From: a virus
Direction: 5' to 3' (one strand)
IMG/VR virus record: IMGVR_UViG_3300021363_000020
Span: 1 to 22,684 of that record
DNA length: 22,684 bases
Positions 4,059-22,608 of this stretch are shown here, piece after piece (the stretch's first letter is position 1; each line of letters opens with the position of its first letter). Both the position numbers and the translations under genes were made by a program. The notes beneath the pieces were generated by a model, which saw only the letters and a list, made by a program, of their open reading frames with translations, made no database searches and was not told where the DNA came from.

Positions 4059-4439
4059 TTACACCTTCTCTTTGTGTTTAGTTATTTGTTTTATTATATC
4101 TACTGCAAATAAATCTTTATCTTCAACAACCCAATACTCATCTACTTCTTTTTCTTTAAAGTTTAATCTTACTGCCCCATATCTTTGGAAATGTACCTTA
4201 TCTCCAAGTTTAACAGGTCTTTCTTGACCACCCAATAAAGAACCGTCATCATTTAAATAAGCTAATTCTCCCAATCCTATTATTTCTCCAACAGTTTGAG
4301 TAGCTGTATGTAAATCAGCATCGTCATGTGTTTTATCCGGGGCCAATATTAAACTAGATCCTTCTACATGTTTTAACTCTTCCTTTTTAAATCTTTTAAC
4401 TTTTAATAGAACTCTACGTCCTAATACTTTATACTTCAT
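4059..4439 (-). CDS. GroES-like co-chaperonin
   Basis: A 126-residue protein. The ATG at 4439 is chosen because GGAG lies 7 nt upstream; an upstream start would add nine residues. The opening KYKVLGRRVLLKVKRF matches the first GroES strand (the family pattern is P-L-x-D-R-V-L-V-K). Later elements also fit: VGEIIGLGE in the middle, VKLGDKVHFQRYGA (the family G-D-x-V-x-F-x-x-Y-x-G strand) and the terminal DKDLFAVDII. An extra loop at residues 22-45 occupies the place of the mobile loop that contacts GroEL. T4 gp31 is the known precedent: a phage GroES substitute that lets the host GroEL fold the capsid protein. Its place beside scaffold and capsid genes supports the same role here. It overlaps the previous gene by 11 nt. 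Confidence 0.75.
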   Translation of the reverse strand: MKYKVLGRRVLLKVKRFKKEELKHVEGSSLILAPDKTHDDADLHTATQTVGEIIGLGELAYLNDDGSLLGGQERPVKLGDKVHFQRYGAVRLNFKEKEVDEYWVVEDKDLFAVDIIKQITKHKEKV

Positions 4440-4692
4440 TTTTATTCTCCTCTTGGTAATCTTCACCTAACTCTAGTAAAGCTTCTTTTATATTTATAAC
4501 TTTTTCGAAAGCTAAGACTTGTCCTTTTAATTGAGCTAGATCTTGCATCTGAATCGGATCTATTGTTGTTCCATATAAAACTCTATTAGTTAAATCAGTT
4601 CTATTTGCTTCTAAATGTTCTTTAAAGAGTCGAAGCATCTCCTGAGTTACCGGGTGTTCCATCCATTGATTTATTTGCGTCTTGAGCAGCAT
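4429..4692 (-). CDS. Small helical protein overlapping the portal gene
   Basis: An 87-residue, mostly helical, acidic protein without known motifs (contains HPVTQEMLRLF, DPIQMQDLAQLKGQ and a Glu-rich tail). The ATG at 4692 has AGAGG 9 nt upstream, so I keep the longest form; its first 71 nt are also the last 71 nt of the portal gene, in another frame. Its end overlaps the co-chaperonin start by 11 nt, suggesting coupled translation. Small helical proteins between portal and scaffold genes are common in phages, but the function is unknown. Internal ATGs at 4662 and 4638 would give a shorter overlap, but no better ribosome site is seen. Confidence 0.55.
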   Translation of the reverse strand: MLLKTQINQWMEHPVTQEMLRLFKEHLEANRTDLTNRVLYGTTIDPIQMQDLAQLKGQVLAFEKVINIKEALLELGEDYQEENKNEV

Positions 4693-6873: not shown

Positions 6874-7623
6874 TTAATAACCGCAAATACCACTTTGACC
6901 TGTTTTATATAGGTGTATTTTTCTATCTGGATCATCATTATCATCGCTCGGTGGTAGTTCTAAAACAGACATCCCGGACATAATAAGATAACGAGTCGCA
7001 TCCATTAAATGGTCATTTTGCTTTTGAGCTATGTGACCATTAAGATCTCTTCGATAAACTCTAAATTCTGATAACCAATTTTGTAAATGAGTAAATATTT
7101 TTAATCTTCCACTAGAGAGTCTCTGGTATACTTCAAGGAGTCCGGATTCAACTGCTTTATTTGCATTAGCTAATTGTAATCCTAAATCTGTATATTGAGT
7201 CATTAAACTAATACCATCTGATTGACTAGCTCCATGAGCTGCAGAATCTATTACTCCATTAATCCAAGTACCTCTAGCTTTTATTCCACTCGCGTGAACT
7301 GAAGGTTCTGCATATCCTTTATAATATTCACTATAAAGATACCATATATCTGATTTCTTATCGTAAGCACCCCAGATACATGCTGTCTTCTTCCAACCAA
7401 CATCCATTCCATAAGCTCGTGGCCAATGCATAGGAAGTTCAAAAGGACTTACTATAATATCATCTTCAACTACTGGATAAATAGCTCCAGATCCTAATTG
7501 GGGTATTCCGCGACTTCTGGCATCTCTTTCATGTGGAGAATAGCCTGCTAAAAGTTCTTCCTTGCTTTCTTTAGTTAAATGGGGAGCATCTTGCCATGTA
7601 AGATTACAAACCCACTTACTCAT
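6874..7623 (-). CDS. Terminase large subunit, C-terminal nuclease part (split gene)
   Basis: A 249-residue protein matching the second half of a terminase large subunit. It starts KWVCNLTWQDAPHL, the segment that normally follows the ATPase domain, continues through RDARSRGIPQLGSGAIYPV, then the RNase H-like nuclease with candidate metal-binding acids in YGMDVGW (D74), GVIDSAA (D126) and DHLMDATRYL (D204, D208). All expected nuclease motifs are present, so the domain looks active: it should cut concatemeric DNA during packaging. It has its own ATG with GGGAG 7 nt upstream and an in-frame stop two codons before that ATG, so it is translated as a separate protein. It overlaps the previous small gene by 8 nt. 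The ATPase half is encoded at 7972-8754; the two together (509 residues) equal a normal-sized TerL. Confidence 0.85.
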   Translation of the reverse strand: MSKWVCNLTWQDAPHLTKESKEELLAGYSPHERDARSRGIPQLGSGAIYPVVEDDIIVSPFELPMHWPRAYGMDVGWKKTACIWGAYDKKSDIWYLYSEYYKGYAEPSVHASGIKARGTWINGVIDSAAHGASQSDGISLMTQYTDLGLQLANANKAVESGLLEVYQRLSSGRLKIFTHLQNWLSEFRVYRRDLNGHIAQKQNDHLMDATRYLIMSGMSVLELPPSDDNDDPDRKIHLYKTGQSGICGY

Positions 7624-7795
7624 TAGTTATCTCCCAATCATTTTCATTGATCTTACCAAATATAAACGGGTGTATTTGTATTACTAATTCTTTAGGGTGT
7701 TTTGGATCCTGAATTACAATTCCTAAACAGCCCAAACTTTTAGAGATTACTAAATCTCCAAGTTTAAATTTATTGATTTTTTCTATCTTTTTCAT
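7616..7795 (-). CDS. Small SH3/KOW-like protein inserted between terminase halves
   Basis: A 59-residue protein (ATG at 7795; a GTG two codons earlier is possible). The core FKLGDLVISKSLGCLGIVIQ followed by a VIQIHPF strand has the look of a small SH3- or KOW-like beta barrel, as in many short phage proteins of unknown role. There is no strong ribosome site, but the start lies inside the end of the previous gene (26-nt overlap), so translational coupling is likely. It ends by overlapping the nuclease start. It is one of two genes lying inside what should be a continuous terminase gene; whether it helps the two halves to join is unknown. Confidence 0.5.
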   Translation of the reverse strand: MKKIEKINKFKLGDLVISKSLGCLGIVIQDPKHPKELVIQIHPFIFGKINENDWEITNE

Positions 7796-7979
7796 ATGCA
7801 CTTAAAAGTTCTTCAAGATATTCTATCTGCGCATCTAGACTTCGAATAGCTTCTTGATTTTTCCAAGATCTATAGGGAAGATGTATTAATCTTAAAATTT
7901 CAGAAGATAAAAGCCTAATAGCATCTTGTGTAGCATTTGCTTGATATTCGTGTTTTAATTCCATTAATGGTTTATTCAC
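7770..7979 (-). CDS. Small helical protein inserted between terminase halves
   Basis: A 69-residue protein with a GTG start, chosen because GGAGAGG sits 9 nt upstream, inside the end of the terminase ATPase gene; an ATG five codons later has no such site. It is predicted to be helical, with heptad-like spacing in AIRSLDAQIEYLEELLSAYEKD (given in part), so a short coiled coil is likely. There are no known motifs. It overlaps the stop of the ATPase gene by 8 nt and the next gene by 26 nt, which ties all four ORFs of this segment into one translation unit. Function unknown; a bridge between terminase halves is a possibility with no direct evidence. Confidence 0.5.
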   Translation of the reverse strand: MNKPLMELKHEYQANATQDAIRLLSSEILRLIHLPYRSWKNQEAIRSLDAQIEYLEELLSAYEKDRKNQ

Positions 7980-8754
7980 GTCTTATTACCTCTCCGAACC
8001 CATTATTAGGAAATTTACCATCTGGTAAAAAACTTAAGACAACCTCACTTAACCCTAATAATGGAGTAAATGTACAAATAACAATACCATCTGTAGTCAT
8101 TGTACGAGTTAAACATTCTGAATATATGCCATTAACATCTGGTTCTTCATCTAACTGAATAACATGTACTTGAGTTCCCATAAAGGCTTCAACGCCTTGT
8201 ATATAACTTTTAAATGTAAGTTGACTAGCACTTTTACCGTCCCAACTCCCATCTGGATTATGCCACCTTACTCCTACGTCTAAAATAGCATCTGGAACAC
8301 CTGGTTTAGTCGTAGTTCTTATTATATCATTTTTAGGAATCATTCCAGTTCCTAAATCGTATCTATTACCCATTAATTCTTGTTGTAAAATATCTCTTGT
8401 GGTTTCGTGAGTCTTTCCAGCAGACCAGACTTTTATAGGACCATTAAACCTTTTTCCTTTCCACCAAATAGGGTATTTACCATTAAGGTGAAAAGATAGT
8501 TCAGCACAAGATGCATATGTTTTCCCAGTACGATTACCAGCTATTAAAGCTCTTTCCTTATATGAGGCACCGGCTTCAAAAAAGAGCATGTGTTTTGGGT
8601 ATAAGTCTCGTCTAAATGGACCGGTTTCTGGAAACAAAAACTGTTGTTTATCATAAGTAGCTCGATCATCTATAATACTTAAAGTTTCTGCTAGTTTTAC
8701 TAGTTCTTCTCTAGATAAATCATTCAGATTGACTTGGTTCTTCTGGGTTGACAT
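7972..8754 (-). CDS. Terminase large subunit, N-terminal ATPase part (split gene)
   Basis: A 260-residue protein carrying the complete packaging ATPase: Walker A AGNRTGKT (72-79), Walker B HVIQLDEEP (197-205) with the catalytic Glu, and the coupling motif CTFTPLLG (227-234). It ends GFGEVIRRE and then stops, exactly where the linker to the nuclease domain would follow in a normal TerL. The nuclease is encoded separately 348 nt further on. The motor should still be able to hydrolyse ATP and drive DNA into the head; the nuclease would have to be recruited in trans. The ATG at 8754 is preferred over the TTG one codon earlier. It overlaps the terminase small-subunit gene by 35 nt. Confidence 0.85.
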   Translation of the reverse strand: MSTQKNQVNLNDLSREELVKLAETLSIIDDRATYDKQQFLFPETGPFRRDLYPKHMLFFEAGASYKERALIAGNRTGKTYASCAELSFHLNGKYPIWWKGKRFNGPIKVWSAGKTHETTRDILQQELMGNRYDLGTGMIPKNDIIRTTTKPGVPDAILDVGVRWHNPDGSWDGKSASQLTFKSYIQGVEAFMGTQVHVIQLDEEPDVNGIYSECLTRTMTTDGIVICTFTPLLGLSEVVLSFLPDGKFPNNGFGEVIRRE

Positions 8755-9217
8755 CAATAATCTGCTCTTTAGGTATAAGATTTATTAATTCTAATTCTAA
8801 CTTATCTTTATGTTTATCAGCTAAAAGTTTTATCGATTCTAATAATTGTGTATTATTCTGATTCTGTAAAACATTCAAATTACCAATATGAATAGTATTA
8901 TTGGTCTGACTATCTGGTTGTTTATTTCCTGGAACCCATCCAAATTTATTATTCATAAAGGCTACCCAGGTCTGAAAATTAAACCCTTTAACTTCTCCTT
9001 TCATCCCTTTCATGCCCCAATCTATCCACCAAGACTCACATTGAGGTTTTCCTACCTCATAAGCTTCTTTAAGTTCTGAGTGATCATACATCCATTGATA
9101 GAAGGTATCTTTGTGTATTCCCCATGCTGCAAAAATATGACAATTAAGTTTCCCATCTGCCATCATCTTTTTAAGTTCTTCTGGGTATGTGTCTTTATAT
9201 TTTGAAGAGGCGCCCAT
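8720..9217 (-). CDS. Terminase small subunit
   Basis: A 165-residue protein. The N-terminal part has a helix-turn-helix-like segment (HIFAAWGIHKDTFYQWMYDH, about 28-47, followed by SELKEAYEVGK), the usual opening of phage small terminase subunits that bind the packaging start site. The middle carries KGFNFQTWVAFMNNKFGW, also typical, and the C-terminus is a helical, acidic oligomerisation or TerL-binding tail. AGG lies 6 nt before the ATG. It lies immediately upstream of, and overlaps, the large-subunit ATPase gene, the standard order. It should form a ring on DNA and regulate the packaging motor. Confidence 0.75.
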   Translation of the reverse strand: MGASSKYKDTYPEELKKMMADGKLNCHIFAAWGIHKDTFYQWMYDHSELKEAYEVGKPQCESWWIDWGMKGMKGEVKGFNFQTWVAFMNNKFGWVPGNKQPDSQTNNTIHIGNLNVLQNQNNTQLLESIKLLADKHKDKLELELINLIPKEQIIDVNPEEPSQSE

Positions 9218-14211: not shown

Positions 14212-14385
14212 ATGGTTAATTTAATAAGTTTAATTATTATAAGTTTATATGTTTTATTTTTTCTTGGGGTTGTTGTTTATGAACTTAAATTAAGCACTCC
14301 AGAATGTAATGAAGATTTATACAAATATTTACAAGGGTTAAAAGAAATACAACAAAACATTAAAAATTTACTGAGGCAAATATGA
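14212..14385 (+). CDS. 57-residue single-pass membrane protein
   Basis: The ORF begins MVNLISLIIISLYVLFFLGV, one N-terminal membrane helix (residues 3-23), followed by an acidic then helical tail ending NIKNLLRQI. GGAG lies 5 nt before the ATG. Its stop overlaps the start of the large DUF6745-like gene (ATGA), so the two are probably translated together. It may be a membrane anchor for its neighbour or an independent early membrane protein; no family recognised. Confidence 0.55.
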   Translation: MVNLISLIIISLYVLFFLGVVVYELKLSTPECNEDLYKYLQGLKEIQQNIKNLLRQI

Positions 14386-16172
14386 AGAAATATAAATTAA
14401 CTCCTGAACACAAACAAGAATTAAAGACTTATAAAGATAAATGGATTAAAAATGCATTATCTACTAAGCCTATGAACGATAAAGAAAAACAAATATGTAA
14501 AGAAAATGTAATTAATATGTATAAATCTAATAATTTAGTTCCACCAAAAAATATAGTGTTTGTCTCTAGTCCATTTATTTTAAGATTTGCTAGTGGATTA
14601 GCGATAGCTTTATTAAAAAGAAAAGTCTCTAATAATTTTACTAATAATGCAACCAATACTGCAATTTATGATATAAATTATGATATAACCTATGATGGAA
14701 CTTATACTGCAACTCGTACTGCAACTTATGCTGCAATTAGTAATATAACTCATAAAGCAGTTAACGATGCAACTCATAATGCAATTAACGATGCAACTTA
14801 TGATGCGACTTATAGTGTAACTAATGCTGCAACTTATGCTGCGACTTATGATGCAGTTCTTAATACACCCCTTAATGCAACTAATGATATAACTCATACT
14901 GCAACTCGTACTGCAACTTATGCTGCAATTAGTAATATAACTCGCACCACGACCTCTTTCTTGGAAAGATCAATTAATGATACAGCTCATACTGCACCTT
15001 ATATTGCAAACAATGATGCAACTCATGTTGCAACTATTGATGCAACCTATTCTGCAACCCATACTCCAACTCATGCTGTAATTCTTGATGCAACTTACGT
15101 TAAAACTCATGATACAACCCGTATCGCGACTTATGATCCAACTCTTGATGCAACTTATGCTGCAACTTATGCTGCAACTAATGATACAACTTTTCCCACA
15201 CCACAATTTGTTACTAATAATAATAATTTAAATACATCCAATCTTAAGAATTGTTATGTAATAAATAATTGTTTAAAAGAATTAGATAAAGAATTTAATT
15301 TAAATAAAGATGGGATTACTGAAGCAAATAGTGTTTATAATAGGTGGCAAGGAGGTAATCAATTATCAGGATGGTGTTCTTATATATCTTTTTTCAAAGA
15401 TATAGTAAAACTTAATAAAACTCATAATGTTGATTATACTAATTATAATTATTGGGAACAACTTTGTTTACATAGCGGCCCAAGAGTTGTACATGAAAAT
15501 TTTTGTATGATTAGTGATAGACCAGAATTGTTGTTATTAGATAGTGATAATAGACCACATTCACTTACAGGACCCTTTTGTAAGTGGAGAGATGGGAGTG
15601 CTTTATATGCAGTACACGGTACAAATGTTCCGGCTTGGATTATAGAACGAAAACAAGATATTACACCAGCTTTGATTGATAAAGAAGAAAATATTGAAGT
15701 TAGACGAGCTATGTTACAAATTTATGGAGAAGAAAAATATTTAATAAAGGGAAATTATGAAGTTTTAGATATAGATAAAGATCAATTTGGACGTAAAAGA
15801 CGGTTACTTAGAAGTAAAGCTCCCTCTAACGGCTCAGATACAGGGAAAATTGATGAGGATATTGTTAAAGTTGAAGTTATTAATAGTACACAAGAACCAG
15901 ATCGAACTTATAATATTTATTATCTTAGTGTTGATCCAGAACTTAGACCTTTATTAAAAGATGCAGATGAAAAGTCATTAAATATGACTAGACAAGAACT
16001 AATTAATAAGCTATACTTAGGAAAACCTCAGAATATGAGTTGTCACAATGCAGTAGCAAGTACATTTGGTAAGTATGGAGAGGAGTATGGGAAAAACGGA
16101 CAAATAAGACAGGGAGATGTCTTTATTGAGTTTAAAGATGGTACTAACCAACGGAAATTTAGGGAGAGTTAA
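14382..16172 (+). CDS. DUF6745-like protein with long tetrapeptide-repeat insert
   Basis: A 596-residue protein in three parts. Residues 1-85: LTPEHKQELKTYKDKWIKNA, LSTKP, a helix, VPPKNIVFVSSPF; this N-terminal pattern (LTPEQ...RWxxxxLST(E/K)P...PP(R/K)xVxxxSP) is one I know from bacterial proteins labelled DUF6745. Residues about 87-270: some 45 tandem four-residue repeats of the type A-T-Y-D. Residues about 285-596: the conserved C-terminal domain with YWEQLCLHSGPRVVHENFCM, DRPELLLLDSDNRPH, GPFCKWRDGSALYAVHG, VPAWIIE and RRAMLQIYGEEKYL. Bacterial members carry SVWD-type tetrapeptide repeats at the same place. The biochemical function is unknown. GAGG lies 5 nt before the ATG, which overlaps the upstream membrane-protein gene. 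It is followed by a small His-rich gene that I believe is its usual partner. Confidence 0.7.
   Translation: MKKYKLTPEHKQELKTYKDKWIKNALSTKPMNDKEKQICKENVINMYKSNNLVPPKNIVFVSSPFILRFASGLAIALLKRKVSNNFTNNATNTAIYDINYDITYDGTYTATRTATYAAISNITHKAVNDATHNAINDATYDATYSVTNAATYAATYDAVLNTPLNATNDITHTATRTATYAAISNITRTTTSFLERSINDTAHTAPYIANNDATHVATIDATYSATHTPTHAVILDATYVKTHDTTRIATYDPTLDATYAATYAATNDTTFPTPQFVTNNNNLNTSNLKNCYVINNCLKELDKEFNLNKDGITEANSVYNRWQGGNQLSGWCSYISFFKDIVKLNKTHNVDYTNYNYWEQLCLHSGPRVVHENFCMISDRPELLLLDSDNRPHSLTGPFCKWRDGSALYAVHGTNVPAWIIERKQDITPALIDKEENIEVRRAMLQIYGEEKYLIKGNYEVLDIDKDQFGRKRRLLRSKAPSNGSDTGKIDEDIVKVEVINSTQEPDRTYNIYYLSVDPELRPLLKDADEKSLNMTRQELINKLYLGKPQNMSCHNAVASTFGKYGEEYGKNGQIRQGDVFIEFKDGTNQRKFRES
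14643..15190 (+). repeat. 12-bp tandem repeats coding tetrapeptides, with a 48-bp perfect duplication
   Basis: The region is built from degenerate 12-bp units such as GCAACTTATGCT, coding A-T-Y-(D/A/T/S). A 48-bp stretch at 14704-14751 is repeated without change at 14896-14943, 192 bp (16 units) apart, which implies a recent duplication of a block inside the array. The reading frame is kept throughout. The array also leaves long antisense frames open, which are not genes. Confidence 0.85.
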
Positions 16173-16867: not shown

Positions 16868-17317
16868 ATGATTAATATTAAACCAAATCTAGACCGTGTG
16901 TTACAGTTACATATAAGATGGGTAATGGGTAAATGCGAAGGAGTTAAAGCTGACCTCTCTGGAGCTGATCTCTCTGGAGCTAATCTACCTGCAACTAATC
17001 TATCTAGAGCTTGCCTTTCTAAAGCTAATCTATCTGGAGCCAATCTCTCTGGAGCTAATCTATTTGGAGCTGATCTATCTGGAGCTAATCTATCTAGAGC
17101 TGATCTAAGTAAAACTATATATGAAAACGATATACCTATTATTATCAATACAGAGTTTTATTCAATAGTTAAATGTAAAGCATATATTAAGATTGGGTGT
17201 AAGATACACACACCCAAAGAATGGGCGAAGTTCACGAATAAAGAAATAAATCAAATGGATGTAAATGCCTCGAAGTTTTGGGAGAAATATAAGAAATTAA
17301 TTTTAATGAAAATATAG
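16868..17317 (+). CDS. Pentapeptide-repeat protein
   Basis: A 149-residue protein. Residues about 27-85 are about 12 pentapeptide repeats of the A-(D/N)-L-S-G type, which fold as a right-handed quadrilateral beta helix. The C-terminal ~60 residues ([31 protein letters not shown] and a final helix) match a tail I know from prophage and phage pentapeptide proteins. A GGGGGCGGA site precedes the ATG. Some pentapeptide proteins mimic DNA and bind gyrase (MfpA, Qnr); whether this one does is unknown. The repeats are regular at DNA level too (GGAGCTAATCTATCT-like units). Confidence 0.75.
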
Positions 17318-17325
17318 GGGGTATT

Positions 17326-18324
17326 ATGATTAATTATAAATCTCCAGATGAACTTTATAATGAAGTTATAAAATATGTAGTAGGGCAAGACAAAGCGGCA
17401 AAAGAACTTTCAGTATTTATATTTAATTATTTCTTATATCATTATTCTAAATATTCAAACCATATAATAGAAAACAACCCATTATCATTATTAATGGGTG
17501 AAAGTGGGTCAGGTAAAACATTTTTAGTTAAAACTATAGCAAAACTATTAAATTTTAAACTTATTGAAATAAATTCAAAAGGTATTTCACAAGAGGGCTG
17601 GCATGGAACTAGTTTTAAAGAATTAGTACTAAATGAATTTAATTTATTACCCAAAGAAGCAAATAATTCTATTAATAAAATATTGTTTATTGATGAAATA
17701 GATAAATTCTGTATCCCACAAGCTAGTACTAATTCTAACGACCATTCTCCGCATATGCAAAGCTCTTTATTAAAGTATTTAGAAGGATTTAAAATAACAG
17801 ATAAGAAATTTAATATAGATTTAACTAATTGCTGTATAATATTAGCTGGGAATTTTCAAAGCATTCGCGACACACGCATTGAAAACAGTCAAAGCATTGG
17901 ATTTATTAATAAAAGTAAGATTAAAAAAGATCGTATTATTCAAGAACTTGAGACATTTGGGATGATTCCAGAATTTATTGGAAGAATCTCTAATATAATC
18001 GAACTAGATGAAATTTCTGAAGAAACATATAATCATTTGATAAATAATGAGAATTTTTATTTTCAAAAATATAAAAAATTATTAAATAATTTAAACATCG
18101 AAATACCCTTTACAAGCGGGATGTTATCTGCTATAATAAATAAGTCAAAAGATTTAAAAATAGGAGTTAGAGGATTTATACAAGAGTTAAATAAATTAAT
18201 TAGTAAAGCACTTGTAGAAAATCAAACTAATTTAAACTTAATGGTAGAATATTTAAATTATCTAGAAGATACAGAAACAAAACATAATGAATGGAAAAAT
18301 AAAATAATAGGTAGAAAAATATAA
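17326..18324 (+). CDS. ClpX-like AAA+ unfoldase without zinc domain
   Basis: A 332-residue AAA+ ATPase. Order: VVGQDKAAKELSVFIFNYF (18-36, as in ClpX VIGQ...), Walker A GESGSGKT (58-65), pore-loop region with GWHG (91-94) where ClpX has GYVG, Walker B ILFIDEID (119-126), an SIGF loop (190-193) in the place of the ClpX IGF loop, FGMIPEFIGRI (211-221, nearly as in ClpX) and GVRGF (280-284, sensor 2). The N-terminal zinc-binding domain of cellular ClpX is missing. It should form a hexamer that unfolds and threads proteins. It starts 8 nt after the pentapeptide gene with AGGGGG upstream. The same transcript encodes a proteasome/HslV-like peptidase, a possible partner; the host ClpP is the alternative partner suggested by the IGF loop. 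Confidence 0.8.
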   Translation: MINYKSPDELYNEVIKYVVGQDKAAKELSVFIFNYFLYHYSKYSNHIIENNPLSLLMGESGSGKTFLVKTIAKLLNFKLIEINSKGISQEGWHGTSFKELVLNEFNLLPKEANNSINKILFIDEIDKFCIPQASTNSNDHSPHMQSSLLKYLEGFKITDKKFNIDLTNCCIILAGNFQSIRDTRIENSQSIGFINKSKIKKDRIIQELETFGMIPEFIGRISNIIELDEISEETYNHLINNENFYFQKYKKLLNNLNIEIPFTSGMLSAIINKSKDLKIGVRGFIQELNKLISKALVENQTNLNLMVEYLNYLEDTETKHNEWKNKIIGRKI

Positions 18325-18325
18325 A

Positions 18326-18505
18326 ATGGATAATAGAAATACAAAAAAAGAAGGGTTTGAGATAACAAGCACTATGATTATACATTGGTATGTTAGAACT
18401 ATTACTGAATCTATACGTTTTGATAATTTTATTTCAGCTTTAGAGTTTTTCAATAGGCAAGAAAGTGCAATTATATTTCCAATTGAAGAAGTAACACACA
18501 AATAA
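18326..18505 (+). CDS. Small protein, distant paralogue of the ORF at 12344
   Basis: A 59-residue protein (MDNRNTKKEGFEITSTMIIH...), with HWYVRTITESIRFDNFISAL matching the spacing of WY, IR, F and AL in the ORF at 12344-12550. It starts 1 nt after the AAA+ stop with no clear ribosome site, so coupled translation is likely. No known family. It lies between the unfoldase and the peptidase genes with five other tiny ORFs, any of which could be an adaptor; that is speculation. Confidence 0.45.
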   Translation: MDNRNTKKEGFEITSTMIIHWYVRTITESIRFDNFISALEFFNRQESAIIFPIEEVTHK

Positions 18506-18516
18506 TAGGAGGGTAT

Positions 18517-18702
18517 ATGTTTAATAATATAGAATTACGGTTCGAAGTAGATGAGACTAAGTATAGTTATGTATTTGGGACTCATTTAAAGAATACAAAA
18601 AATAGAGAGTTTGTTAATTTAAATCTTTCAGAAACAGAGATATTAAATATAAAAAAAGAATTGTTTATAGTATTAGATAAATTGATAGAAAAGTCATTAT
18701 AA
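18517..18702 (+). CDS. Small protein with a consensus ribosome site
   Basis: A 61-residue protein (MFNNIELRFEVDETKYSYVF...), predicted as two to three strands and a C-terminal helix (ETEILNIKKELFIVLDKLI). A full AGGAGG lies 5 nt before the ATG, among the best sites in the window, suggesting high expression. No family recognised. Confidence 0.55.
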   Translation: MFNNIELRFEVDETKYSYVFGTHLKNTKNREFVNLNLSETEILNIKKELFIVLDKLIEKSL

Positions 18703-18718
18703 AAACGGAGAGTTTGAA

Positions 18719-18844
18719 ATGAATTTAACAGAGAAAATTATACAATTAGAAAAACTTAATTTTAAGTTAATGAAAGAAATATATGAATTAAGAAAATTAA
18801 TAGAAAGCTTAAAGAAAAAGCCCAATTATATTAATATGTGTTAA
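18719..18844 (+). CDS. 41-residue coiled-coil-like protein
   Basis: The ORF reads MNLTEKIIQLEKLNFKLMKE, then a continuing helix with Leu/Ile heptads to KKKPNYINMC. GGAG lies 8 nt upstream of the ATG. It is probably a short oligomerising helix; function unknown. Confidence 0.45.
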   Translation: MNLTEKIIQLEKLNFKLMKEIYELRKLIESLKKKPNYINMC

Positions 18845-18853
18845 GGAGATGTT

Positions 18854-18973
18854 ATGCACAGCTTATTAAAAGAACTTAATGAATTTTTATTTGGACACTT
18901 TAGAAAATCTAAAACTAAAAAAATATCTAAACCTATAAAGAAAAGTAAAACTATAAAAAGCAAAGTAACATAA
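18854..18973 (+). CDS. 39-residue Lys-rich protein
   Basis: A helical first half (MHSLLKELNEFLFGHF) and then a very basic tail with K-S-K-T repeats. AAGGAG lies about 5 nt upstream. It could bind nucleic acid or be a small host-interfering protein; no family known. Confidence 0.45.
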   Translation: MHSLLKELNEFLFGHFRKSKTKKISKPIKKSKTIKSKVT

Positions 18974-18974
18974 T

Positions 18975-19280
18975 ATGAAATTTATATTGAAATTAGAACC
19001 AGAATATACAGGATATCGTATTACACAAGAAGAATATAATAATACAGGATCTATAGTATTACATACTTTTTTAATCCCTTTATTATCATATACGCACGGT
19101 AGAAAAGAAGCTGAAGATTTTTTTCATAAGGTTAGAATAAATATTATATCTAAAAATTGGTTTGATATGGTAGAATACAGCTCTTTTACATTTAATAACC
19201 GTAAGAAAAAATGCTACGCTGTATTTAAACTTAAAAAAGAAATAAATATTAAAAAATATTTAGGATTTGATAAGAGGTAA
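18975..19280 (+). CDS. Unknown protein, 101 residues
   Basis: A mixed alpha-beta protein (MKFILKLEPEYTGYRITQEE, a central helix with GRKEAEDFFHKVRI, then strands to KKCYAVFKLKK). It starts 1 nt after the preceding stop without a clear Shine-Dalgarno site, so coupled translation is likely. No motif or family recognised. It is the largest ORF between the unfoldase and peptidase genes. Confidence 0.5.
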   Translation: MKFILKLEPEYTGYRITQEEYNNTGSIVLHTFLIPLLSYTHGRKEAEDFFHKVRINIISKNWFDMVEYSSFTFNNRKKKCYAVFKLKKEINIKKYLGFDKR

Positions 19281-19282
19281 TT

Positions 19283-19411
19283 ATGACTCAAGACGAAAAG
19301 AAAAAAGTAAAAGAACTTATTAAATTAGAAACTATGAATCAAGAAGATTATAGTAGCATTGAAGAATTAAACGCTAAAAAATATCAACTTAAAAGAGAAT
19401 TAGGATTGTGA
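19283..19411 (+). CDS. 42-residue acidic/basic helical protein
   Basis: The ORF reads MTQDEKKKVKELIKLETMNQ, then EDYSSIEELNAKKYQLKREL, then GL and a TGA stop that overlaps the GTG start of the peptidase gene. GAGG lies 5 nt before its ATG. The overlap means it is probably translated in step with the peptidase. Two short helices are likely; function unknown. Confidence 0.5.
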   Translation: MTQDEKKKVKELIKLETMNQEDYSSIEELNAKKYQLKRELGL

Positions 19412-20034
19412 ACAGAGAAAAAAAAGTTTCAAACACATGTATAGCTATCTGTCGTAATAGGCGAGGCAAACTTATGATAGCTGGGGACCGAAGGTGTTCC
19501 TGGGGATATGGATTTGCACAATCTATGGAATTCCCTAAAATAAATAAAAAAGAAGGTATATTATTAGGAGCTACTGGATCAGGAGACATGTGTAGTTTAT
19601 TTGTTGAAGATGGAGGATTTAAATTTCCAGAAAAGAAAACAAAATGCCTTAATACTTATATGTACCATACAGTAAAGCCGGCAGTTCATAGATTCTTAAT
19701 TGGGCAAAAATTTGGTAAAAAAGATGAACTAATGCTGCCTCCAGATTGTTATGTCGAACTAGTTATAGGAATCGAGGGGCAAGTTTGGTCTTTAATAGTC
19801 CAAAACCCTTTAGAAGGAACTAAAGAGCACTTTGCTGGGACTATAGATATAGGAAGAATTCCTAGTATTCCTTATGTTACTGGTTGTGGAAGATCTACTG
19901 CTTATGGTATTCTTTTATATGAACTTAAAAAAACAGGTTATTTAACTAAAGACATTTTAAAAATAGTATTTGAAATTACTGGACAAGTAAGTCCCGGTTG
20001 TGATAGTGTGTGTGATATATTAACGGAGGATTAG
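19408..20034 (+). CDS. Proteasome/HslV-like Ntn-hydrolase
   Basis: A 208-residue protein with a GTG start overlapping the previous stop. It aligns by eye with HslV and proteasome beta subunits: NTCIAICRNRRGKLMIAGD (residues 9-27) against the N-terminal strand pair T-T-I-V...V-I-A-G-D; then PKI (43-45) with the Lys before the hydrophobic residue; LLGATGSGDMCSLF (52-65) against the GxxGxxAD...LF helix start; and VTGCGRSTAYGILLYEL with ...TKDILKIVFEITGQVSPGCD, as in the HslV G-S-G-G...A...I-A-x-D-I. The catalytic residues Thr10 (Thr1), Asp27 (Asp17) and Lys44 (Lys33) are all present. Nine residues precede Thr10, so N-terminal processing would be needed to expose it. The length fits one subunit. 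It lies in the same operon as the ClpX-like unfoldase. It could also be a related non-proteolytic Ntn-hydrolase. Confidence 0.72.
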   Translation: MNREKKVSNTCIAICRNRRGKLMIAGDRRCSWGYGFAQSMEFPKINKKEGILLGATGSGDMCSLFVEDGGFKFPEKKTKCLNTYMYHTVKPAVHRFLIGQKFGKKDELMLPPDCYVELVIGIEGQVWSLIVQNPLEGTKEHFAGTIDIGRIPSIPYVTGCGRSTAYGILLYELKKTGYLTKDILKIVFEITGQVSPGCDSVCDILTED

Positions 20035-20043
20035 TAAGTAATT

Positions 20044-21660
20044 ATGAATAAAACTATAGAAAAATTACCATGTAATGAGTGTGGTTCTAAAAATAACCTT
20101 AGAAAATTTTCTAATGGCTCTAGTTATTGTTTTACTCCAGAGTGCAATTATAATAAAAATAATAAACGAGCTTTAAAAATTGATTTAATTGGAGAATTTA
20201 AAGAATTTCGAGGAATCAGTATTGAAGCTTGTAAAGAATATCTATATCAAATAGCTAAAGTAGGCAATGAAGAAGTACATATAATGAACTATTCAGATAA
20301 AGAGGGAAATTTAGGTGTCCAAAAAATTAGAAAAGAAAACAAAGAATTTGCATGGATCAATAGAAATGGCGAGAATCAGCACATGTATACATTATTCTCA
20401 AGAAAATGGGATTATAATAAACCCATTATTATTACAGAAGGAGAAATTGATTCTTTGTCGTGCTTTGAAGCTGGTTTCCAGGCTGTTTCACTCCCGGATG
20501 GAGCTGCTTCTGCGGAAAAAGTGTGGGAATTGGACAAAAAAGAACTCCTTAAATTTAAAAACATAGTGTTATTTTTAGATAATGACGAAGATGGCCAATT
20601 AGCTACAGAAAAATTAAAAAACTTAGTGCCTATTGAGAAATGCAGGTTTATTGGGGACTATTATGGATTTAAAGATGCTAATGACTTATTACAAGTAAGT
20701 GGAGACTGTTTACCTACGCAATTAAAACAATGCTTAGAAGAAGAGATTAAAGAATATATCCCAGATGGTATTATTTTTGGAAATAATATAAAACAAAGTA
20801 ATCTCCTTAAAAAGAAACCAGCCGGTCTTGAATTGCCGTGGCCAAAAATAACAGAAATGCTTAGGGGGCTTAGAAAAGGAAAACTTATATTATTAGGGGG
20901 TGGTAGCAATATAGGAAAAACCCCAGTAATGAAAGAAATAGCTTATTATTTAAGAACTAATTATTTAGATCTTAAAATAGGAAACATATATTTAGAAGAT
21001 GAGGATTATGAAGCTGAAAATAGTTTTATAGCTTTAGCAGCAGGAGTGCCACAACAAGACTTTATTCAAGATCCTTTAAAGTATATAACTAAAGATAAAT
21101 ATGATTTTTATTTTAATGAATTAGTAAATACAGATAAACTAATGTTTATTAGCTTAGATGAAATTTCAGAATATAATGCTAATAAGTTATATAAAACACT
21201 TGAATATTTAGGAACTATTAAGAAGTTTGACATAGTATTTATTGATCATTTATCTTGGATTGTTACTAACACATCTGAAAATATAGACGAAAGAAAAGCC
21301 ATTGATAAAATGATGCAAAAACTTAAAGGAATTTGTAGAAAAACAGGAATGATAATATTTGCAGCAAACCATCTTAATCAGCCAACACAAGGCATTGATT
21401 GGGCCGATGGAAAACAAGTAGAACAGAGAGACTTTAGAGGATCTGGAAGTCTTAGAATGGTTCCAGATATTCTTTTAGGAGTTGAAAGAAATTCTAAAAA
21501 TTCATATACAAGAGATAAAAGTATTATAAGAGTAGTGAAAAACAGAGGTTATGGAAGTAGTGTAGGAGAGGCCGATAGTTTACATTTCGATAGTAAAACA
21601 GGCCGTTTAAAAACCTTGAATCAGATGGGCTTTGGGGGGACTAATGACACCGAAGAATAA
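20044..21660 (+). CDS. DNA primase-helicase (T7 gp4-like)
   Basis: A 538-residue two-enzyme protein. Zinc-binding domain: C10, C13, C29, C34 (CNEC ... CFTPEC). TOPRIM primase core: TEGEIDSLS (131-139) and FLDNDEDGQ (177-185). RecA/DnaB-type helicase: Walker A GGGSNIGKT (285-293), FIDHLSWI Walker B-like strand, the HLNQPTQG region, and a DFRGSGSLRMVPD segment, as in T7-type helicases. It should make primers and unwind DNA ahead of the phage polymerase. The length is close to T7 gp4 (566). It follows the peptidase gene by 9 nt; the nearest GGAGG lies about 12 nt before the ATG. An acidic C-terminal tail (NDTEE) is present, as in T7 gp4, where it binds the polymerase. Confidence 0.88.
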   Translation: MNKTIEKLPCNECGSKNNLRKFSNGSSYCFTPECNYNKNNKRALKIDLIGEFKEFRGISIEACKEYLYQIAKVGNEEVHIMNYSDKEGNLGVQKIRKENKEFAWINRNGENQHMYTLFSRKWDYNKPIIITEGEIDSLSCFEAGFQAVSLPDGAASAEKVWELDKKELLKFKNIVLFLDNDEDGQLATEKLKNLVPIEKCRFIGDYYGFKDANDLLQVSGDCLPTQLKQCLEEEIKEYIPDGIIFGNNIKQSNLLKKKPAGLELPWPKITEMLRGLRKGKLILLGGGSNIGKTPVMKEIAYYLRTNYLDLKIGNIYLEDEDYEAENSFIALAAGVPQQDFIQDPLKYITKDKYDFYFNELVNTDKLMFISLDEISEYNANKLYKTLEYLGTIKKFDIVFIDHLSWIVTNTSENIDERKAIDKMMQKLKGICRKTGMIIFAANHLNQPTQGIDWADGKQVEQRDFRGSGSLRMVPDILLGVERNSKNSYTRDKSIIRVVKNRGYGSSVGEADSLHFDSKTGRLKTLNQMGFGGTNDTEE

Positions 21661-21918: not shown

Positions 21919-22608
21919 ATGAATATTCCAAAATTTCTCGTAATAGATTTAGAAACTCAATCAAAAGAAATGTTTAACAGAAAAGGGCATTTTCGGAATA
22001 ACAGTATAGTAGCGATCGGATTAAAAAGCTCTTCTGGAGAAGAAAAGATTGATTATATATACCCAAATAAACTTAAAAATTTAGAAATTGATGAGGATAT
22101 TTTAATAGGTCATAATCTTAAATTTGACTTATTACATTTGTGGTCTATCTCTGGAATTCAAAAGTTTTTAAAGAATAAAGGGAAAGTCTATGACACTATG
22201 TTAGCCGAGTATTTTATGTCTGGGCAAACACATAAATTTCCAGGCCTTAGAGAATTAGCAGTCAAATATGGAAGGCCGGAACGGTCTAAATATATGGAAG
22301 AGTATTGGGATAAAGGTATTGATACTTCAAAAATCCCTGTAAATATAGTTTTACAAGATTTAAAAGAAGATGTTTTAGATACAGAAGCTGTTTATTTAGG
22401 ACAACAGGCTTTATTAACAGAGCAGCAAAAGAAGTTATTAGAAATTCAAAACGATCTTCTTTTAGGACTTACAGAAATGGAGTTTAATGGTATTTATTGT
22501 AATCGAATTATACTAGAGCAAAATCAATTAGAATTAGAAGCTCAACTAGAAAGAAACGTTAATGAACTAGAAGAACTCATTAAACCCTACTGGAAATTAG
22601 AATGTTAA
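21919..22608 (+). CDS. DNA polymerase A, 3'-5' exonuclease part
   Basis: A 229-residue protein: VIDLET with D10 and E12 (Exo I), IGHNLKFDLLHLW with D70 (Exo II), VYDTMLAEYFMSG, and LKEDVLDTEAVYLG (about 148-161, Exo III region). After this it continues into the first polymerase helices (LLEIQNDLLLGLTEMEFNGI), then stops at LEC. In T7-like polymerases the protein would go on with an N-x-x-S...LLFGG segment, which here is found in a different frame directly after. The proofreading domain looks intact. GAGAG lies upstream of the ATG. It is in the replication operon after the primase-helicase. Confidence 0.8.
   Translation: MNIPKFLVIDLETQSKEMFNRKGHFRNNSIVAIGLKSSSGEEKIDYIYPNKLKNLEIDEDILIGHNLKFDLLHLWSISGIQKFLKNKGKVYDTMLAEYFMSGQTHKFPGLRELAVKYGRPERSKYMEEYWDKGIDTSKIPVNIVLQDLKEDVLDTEAVYLGQQALLTEQQKKLLEIQNDLLLGLTEMEFNGIYCNRIILEQNQLELEAQLERNVNELEELIKPYWKLEC

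Follow-up and report, generated by a model that had tools for sequence, protein, structure and literature searches.

Introduction

Two classes of phage proteasome homologue, PPH and AAH, were described in 2021, AAH being found in many phages (Fuchs et al., PMC8665760), and the Salmonella phage pSal-SNUABM-04 was reported in 2020 to carry an HslV gene without HslU (PMC7823757). ClpX and ClpP genes are likewise known in jumbo phages, for example Atu_ph07 (PMC6102473). Here we analyse the virus record IMGVR_UViG_3300021363_000020 over its whole length of 22,684 bases (32% G+C; hereafter the window), in which a gene for a ClpX-type AAA+ protein (17326-18324, + strand, 332 amino acids) is followed on the same strand, after 1083 bp, by a gene for an Ntn-hydrolase of the phage family phrog_1040 (19408-20034, 208 amino acids, GTG start). 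An earlier reading of the DNA letters, the original prediction, had recognised both proteins, placed them about 1.1 kb apart in one operon and proposed that the phage may make its own ATP-dependent protease.

Homologues of the proteasome are frequent in phages: a single pattern matched at least 387 viral contigs, of which 357 were confirmed as relatives. We found no paper reporting a function or a partner ATPase for them. The statement in the original prediction that no phage system of this kind had been characterised holds for the paired system, whereas phage proteasome homologues and phage ClpX and ClpP had each already been described. What is new in the window is a ClpX core and a proteasome homologue within 1.1 kb of each other in a phage of ordinary size, together with a leader on the phage peptidase and a stripped ClpX core. 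We consider it probable that the phage replication cluster contains two genes that act separately in protein turnover, and not a demonstrated two-part protease, because the AAA+ protein is of the ClpX and not the HslU type and because the two kinds of gene rarely co-occur and were never found close together elsewhere.

Results

The 208-residue peptidase gave no match at all in Pfam and NCBIfam scans; among PHROGs profiles it matched phrog_1040, 'peptidase HslV family', at 2e-5 with hmmscan and at 1.2e-7 in a search of its own record. BLASTP aligned it over its full length with the homologue of phage 2L372X (25% identity, E = 9e-7), and against a hidden Markov model of 58 viral homologues, built without the window peptidase, it scored 37.0 bits compared with 4.8 for the best of 2000 shuffled copies. 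A chance match to its family is excluded, as it is for the AAA+ protein described below. In the PDB, the profile of the phrog_1040 family matched HslV (4e-10) and also BPH (beta-proteobacteria proteasome homologue). The AlphaFold2 model of the peptidase (predicted local distance difference test, pLDDT, 86.2; predicted template modelling score, pTM, 0.84) had HslV (6e-8), BPH (4e-7) and 20S beta subunits as its top Foldseek matches, with a probability of 1.00.

The active site was located by alignment. The predicted nucleophile, equivalent to Thr1 of HslV and the proteasome, is Thr10 (19435-19437), followed on the + strand by Asp27 (19486-19488; Asp17 of the proteasome), Lys44 (19537-19539; Lys33) and Gly54 (19567-19569; the oxyanion-hole Gly47). 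These four residues and Thr56, Ser58, Gly159 and Gly161 agree with all 58 viral homologues, such that the Thr, Asp and Lys picked out from the letters alone are rightly placed in the alignment. The alignment and the predicted fold together indicate that it is right to call the protein an HslV/proteasome-type Ntn-hydrolase with conserved active-site residues; the profile searches and the model of the single chain, both proposed earlier as checks, bear out that pattern. The peptidase motif AGDRR.SWG, turned into degenerate DNA, matched five times by chance and led to no homologue.

Among described proteins, the phrog_1040 family (T5-like EPS7, Aeromonas phage 2L372X, Escherichia phage 121Q and others) is closest, sharing with the window peptidase full-length homology, a phage-encoded origin, identical Thr, Asp, Lys, Gly and Ser (58/58) and an HslV/BPH-like fold. 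The window peptidase differs from these relatives in its low identity to them (18-32%), a nine-residue leader and a short insertion ahead of the GCG motif. Bacterial HslV (ClpQ) has the fold and catalytic set in common with it, but in sequence the phage family is nearer to the window peptidase than HslV is, and there is no HslU gene in the record. The fold is also shared with BPH (template modelling score 0.62-0.64 of the query), at low identity (13-18%); BPH is bacterial and has no propeptide, whereas the window peptidase is phage-encoded and has a leader. No dedicated unfoldase is known for BPH. PPH proper is about 140 residues long and lacks helix H2 (Fuchs et al. 2021). The window peptidase is 208 residues long and its model contains two helices (59-66 and 81-99) between the strands flanking the first helix pair; since both helices of that pair are modelled, in a protein of this length, we ruled out PPH proper and assign the peptidase to a longer phage type with a core of about 180 residues.

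The leader, MNREKKVSN (19408-19434, +), puts nine residues ahead of the predicted nucleophile, with no alternative start codon between the GTG start and Thr10. Thr directly follows the start residue in 56 of the 58 viral homologues, and the other two have a short MKTT-type start.

The AAA+ protein (17326-18324) matched Pfam AAA (E = 1.5e-16) and, among NCBIfam models, ClpX (4.5e-38) far ahead of HslU (6.3e-18), in agreement with the ClpX-like type named in the original prediction. Its closest PDB sequences are ClpX (2e-26), and the first 50 PDB structural matches of its AlphaFold2 model (pLDDT 75.6, pTM 0.74) were all ClpX chains. It scored 131 bits against NF003745 and 112 against TIGR00382, for which the curated equivalog cut-off is 359-371. 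The protein is a ClpX-like core and not an orthologous ClpX, because its NCBIfam score of 131 bits lies far under the cut-off of 359.

The protein was aligned with E. coli ClpX, E. coli HslU and phage ClpX proteins, and compared separately with 39 viral ClpX relatives. All motifs named in the original prediction were located in the gene, on the + strand: an intact Walker A, GESGSGKT (17497-17520, residues 58-65), an intact Walker B, ILFIDEID (17680-17703, residues 119-126), FGMIPEFIGR (17956-17985), whose arginine finger aligns with ClpX R307, and, within GVRGF, the sensor-2 motif GVRG (18163-18174, residues 280-283). The core features of ClpX (Walker A and B, arginine finger, sensor 2) are thus all present. 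The tripeptide IGF (17896-17904, residues 191-193) aligns with the ClpP-docking IGF loop of ClpX, and its phenylalanine is unchanged across all 39 viral relatives. The pore-1 loop is GWHG (17596-17607, residues 91-94) compared with GY[VI]G in 39/39 relatives. A shortened segment has lost the RKH loop, which is also missing in 11 of the 39, and the N-terminal C4 zinc-binding domain is absent, the protein beginning at the AAA+ core.

Identity to ClpX of bacteria and of jumbo phages (phage G gp258, Atu_ph07 gp2, PA5oct and SCTP-2) is 25-32%, and the core motifs and the IGF tripeptide are shared; the window protein departs from the jumbo-phage proteins in its occurrence in a small-genome phage, in the altered pore, in the absence of the zinc-binding domain and the RKH loop, and in the length of its IGF segment. 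With HslU (ClpY) it shares the general AAA+ core and the missing zinc domain. In the alignment with E. coli HslU, however, both the I-domain and the C-terminal HslV-docking tail are absent from it, and it has an IGF segment that HslU lacks.

We then consider whether the two genes travel together. Whole records were searched, with a positive control; many of these records are fragments, so that the co-occurrence counts are lower bounds. None of 80 IMG/VR records carrying ClpX-like genes contained phrog_1040. Among nine phage records with ClpX, one did (Salicola phage SCTP-2), its distance to the ClpX gene exceeding 145 kb. Conversely, of 74 viral phrog_1040 records, 4 had a clear Clp-type AAA_2 domain, always 24 kb or more from the phrog_1040 gene; one of the four is 121Q and another a record of 578 kb. 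Viral ClpX genes had ClpP within 10 kb in 27 of 80 cases and a proteasome homologue nearby in none. Twelve phages linked to the window by their portal proteins were compared, with a control: a proteasome homologue is present in DSL-LC04, and a ClpX-like gene was found in none of the 12, DSL-LC04 included. The conserved co-occurrence expected of a dedicated two-gene ATP-dependent protease was not found in these records.

Several candidates were set aside in these surveys. Weak AAA_2 matches of about 370 amino acids in several phrog_1040 jumbo contigs belong to other AAA ATPases and not to Clp unfoldases; the large proteasome-homologue contigs L195, L196 and L197 (records G107, G093 and G116) share such an ATPase (about 370 amino acids, perhaps of the MoxR type), encoded tens of kb from the homologue. 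In 6 of 50 records (L115, L119, L120, L121, L122 and L133), PhoH is encoded no more than 7 kb from a phage proteasome homologue, and in the L122 record the end of the PhoH domain match precedes the homologue by about 30 bases. These are mainly T5-like, Aeromonas and 121Q-like phages, and we rejected PhoH as a functional neighbour in favour of shared lineage as the probable explanation. In Alcaligenes phage QDWS535, the gene product annotated as 'peptidase' was dismissed as a homologue because PHROGs assigns it to glutamine amidotransferases; that phage (L004) has at 35678-41800 a cluster of ATP-grasp, amidotransferase, amidoligase and COOH-NH2 ligase genes. SCTP-2 (MF360958) has two phrog_1040 matches, one with internal stop codons, in addition to ClpX and a ClpS-like gene. 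L024 (CAKLQH020000005, 'Acinetobacter phage MD-2021a') carries tig-clpP-clpX arranged as in bacteria and is apparently a bacterial contig that was entered as a phage.

The functional link of the original prediction, in which a ClpX-type motor feeds an HslV-type chamber, is not supported by this evidence, and we regard a joint phage-encoded protease as improbable. Both genes lie 1.1 kb apart on one strand, the AAA+ motifs and the peptidase active site are intact, and the shortened IGF loop together with new pore-1 and RKH regions could mean a switch from ClpP to another partner. Set against this are the missing HslU-type I-domain and docking tail, the IGF tripeptide that is nevertheless kept, the small overlap between viral ClpX and phrog_1040 genomes, and reports of phages with HslV but no HslU (PMC7823757). 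In the proposed survey of related phages, DSL-LC04 carried only one of the two genes, though its homologue is of the shorter, 150-residue type. A more specific form, in which a ClpX-like motor that lost ClpP was retuned, by its short IGF loop, GWHG pore and lack of RKH and zinc domains, to cap a self-processing proteasome-type ring of the phage's own, would be just as much of a long shot.

The reading as two separate genes has its own difficulties, which we gather here. Taken alone, the spacing on one strand speaks for a link. Single-protein IMG/VR scans found no close relatives of the peptidase, the AAA+ protein or the primase, and a genome-contig scan found none of the peptidase; near relatives are therefore absent from the collections, and the co-occurrence counts above cover phages outside the pair's own close clade. 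The remaining difficulties concern the partner of the AAA+ protein and the leader of the peptidase.

The segment from IGF to FGMIPEF spans 18 residues in the AAA+ protein compared with 22-28 in viral ClpX relatives, and Ser stands at the V274 position. In ClpX the IGF tripeptide packs into ClpP clefts, and ClpP binding is weakened both by shortening of the IGF loop and by changes at V274 (PMC7112951), so that ClpP docking would not be assured here. There is also no ClpP gene within the 22.7-kb record, which is probably about half of the genome. These points bear on a stricter form of our reading, in which the AAA+ protein docks on host ClpP and steers ClpXP to substrates chosen by the phage, the peptidase being unrelated. 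The retained IGF at the aligned position argues for it, as do the ClpP genes that accompany viral ClpX in 27 of 80 loci and the ClpP and ClpX genes standing side by side in phage G. The shortened loop and the lost V274 contact argue against it; we regard it as a tentative option, somewhat short of an even chance.

Position -1 of the peptidase, ahead of Thr10, is Asn. Gly is usual before the processed Thr of proteasomes, and Asn there is unusual. Peptidase activity would need removal of the leader, since nine residues precede Thr10, and such processing at Thr10 is putative. The leader might instead block Thr10, or the protein might perform another N-terminal-Thr reaction, as in the ligase connectase. 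The want of an alternative start codon and the Asn at -1 fit such an inactive or otherwise acting protein, as does the restriction of propeptides to proteasome beta and HslV subunits among the homologues that Fuchs et al. (2021, PMC8665760) reported. The active-site positions invariant in the 58 relatives are all kept, however, which argues against lost catalysis, and comparable leaders are removed by proteasome beta subunits. We think it unlikely that the peptidase is not an active protease.

The neighbourhood places both genes in a plus-strand module running from 14382 to the end of the record. Six small open reading frames (ORFs) with close spacing separate them (18326-18505, 18517-18702, 18719-18844, 18854-18973, 18975-19280 and 19283-19411, all +); searches with two of them, 18517-18702 and 18975-19280, gave no convincing family match. 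The stop codon of the last small ORF and the GTG start of the peptidase gene overlap, and TTAGGATT stands before the GTG. Because six co-directional, closely spaced ORFs bridge both genes, the layout is consistent with that of one transcription unit; to call it one operon, as had been done, agrees with this arrangement while going slightly beyond the sequence data. Directly after the peptidase gene comes a T7-type primase-helicase (20044-21660, +) and downstream of it a DNA polymerase (21919-22608, +), with which the module closes.

Gene order and composition also bear on whether one or both genes could be host DNA, bacterial contamination joined to a phage contig, or an assembly artefact. The AAA+ gene has a lower G+C content than the peptidase gene (24% vs 35%), and some public 'phage' records with ClpX are plainly bacterial contigs. 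The small ORFs nearby are nevertheless as low in G+C as the AAA+ gene, both genes are flanked by phage genes (pentapeptide protein, primase-helicase, polymerase) in continuous close spacing, and the peptidase is nearest to phage homologues. On gene order and composition we rejected contamination or a chimera, which we consider highly improbable.

Upstream, the AAA+ gene is adjoined by that of the pentapeptide-repeat protein (16868-17317, +; Pfam 1.5e-18, with PHROG matches). A DUF6745 protein of 596 amino acids (14382-16172, +) has as its N-terminal half a long degenerate repeat of the NDATYAATYD type, and the Cys-rich opposite-strand ORFs there are mirror artefacts of this repeat.

The minus strand carries a morphogenesis module with major capsid, scaffold-like, GroES-like, portal and terminase genes. 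The GroES-like gene exists as claimed (4059-4466, -; Pfam Cpn10 1.9e-5), but its proposed membership of a protein-quality or proteolysis set with the two genes above was rejected: both here and in the four closest portal relatives (MW202796, OK172329, MW202785 and L002) it directly follows the portal gene or is separated from it by no more than one small gene, and it looks like a conserved head-assembly co-chaperonin. The large terminase gene (6874-8757, -) is in two parts: ORFs 7972-8757 and 6874-7623 are separated by about 350 bases in which two small ORFs lie. The related contig L002 has the gene whole, as one ORF (1139-2593), and the annotation of phage MW202785 shows a comparable division. 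An intron could account for this, as could a gene split; an Rfam search returned no known intron.

Discussion

The families, folds, conserved active sites and gene order described above allow a proposal for how the two proteins may assemble, be processed, and find partners and substrates. The trimmed ClpX would form an AAA+ hexamer that unfolds or remodels particular proteins. This action would most likely fall around replication initiation or host takeover, and we propose a role near replication because the genes immediately downstream are replication genes; a comparable suggestion exists for the ClpX of Atu_ph07, whose gene lies beside topoisomerase genes (PMC6102473). The AAA+ protein might dock on host ClpP through its retained IGF loop or work as a stand-alone remodeller, in the way that host ClpX acts on the Mu transpososome. 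The nine-residue leader of the peptidase would be removed, probably by the peptidase itself during ring assembly, making Thr10 the N-terminal nucleophile. The resulting ring may act as a peptidase that, as in uncapped BPH, has no ATPase of its own, or it may be fed by some host partner.

A phage with a proteasome homologue near an unfoldase offers a cheap test case for partnership, and the leader before the catalytic Thr makes self-processing directly testable in the phage peptidase family. If the AAA+ protein and the peptidase work together, they would form a new kind of ATP-dependent protease and give the peptidase family its first partner; a ClpX-like motor capping the phage's own ring would be the first fully phage-encoded hybrid 'ClpX-HslV' protease. 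If the two are not paired, the ClpX-like core would be a minimal viral unfoldase, which may steer host ClpP.

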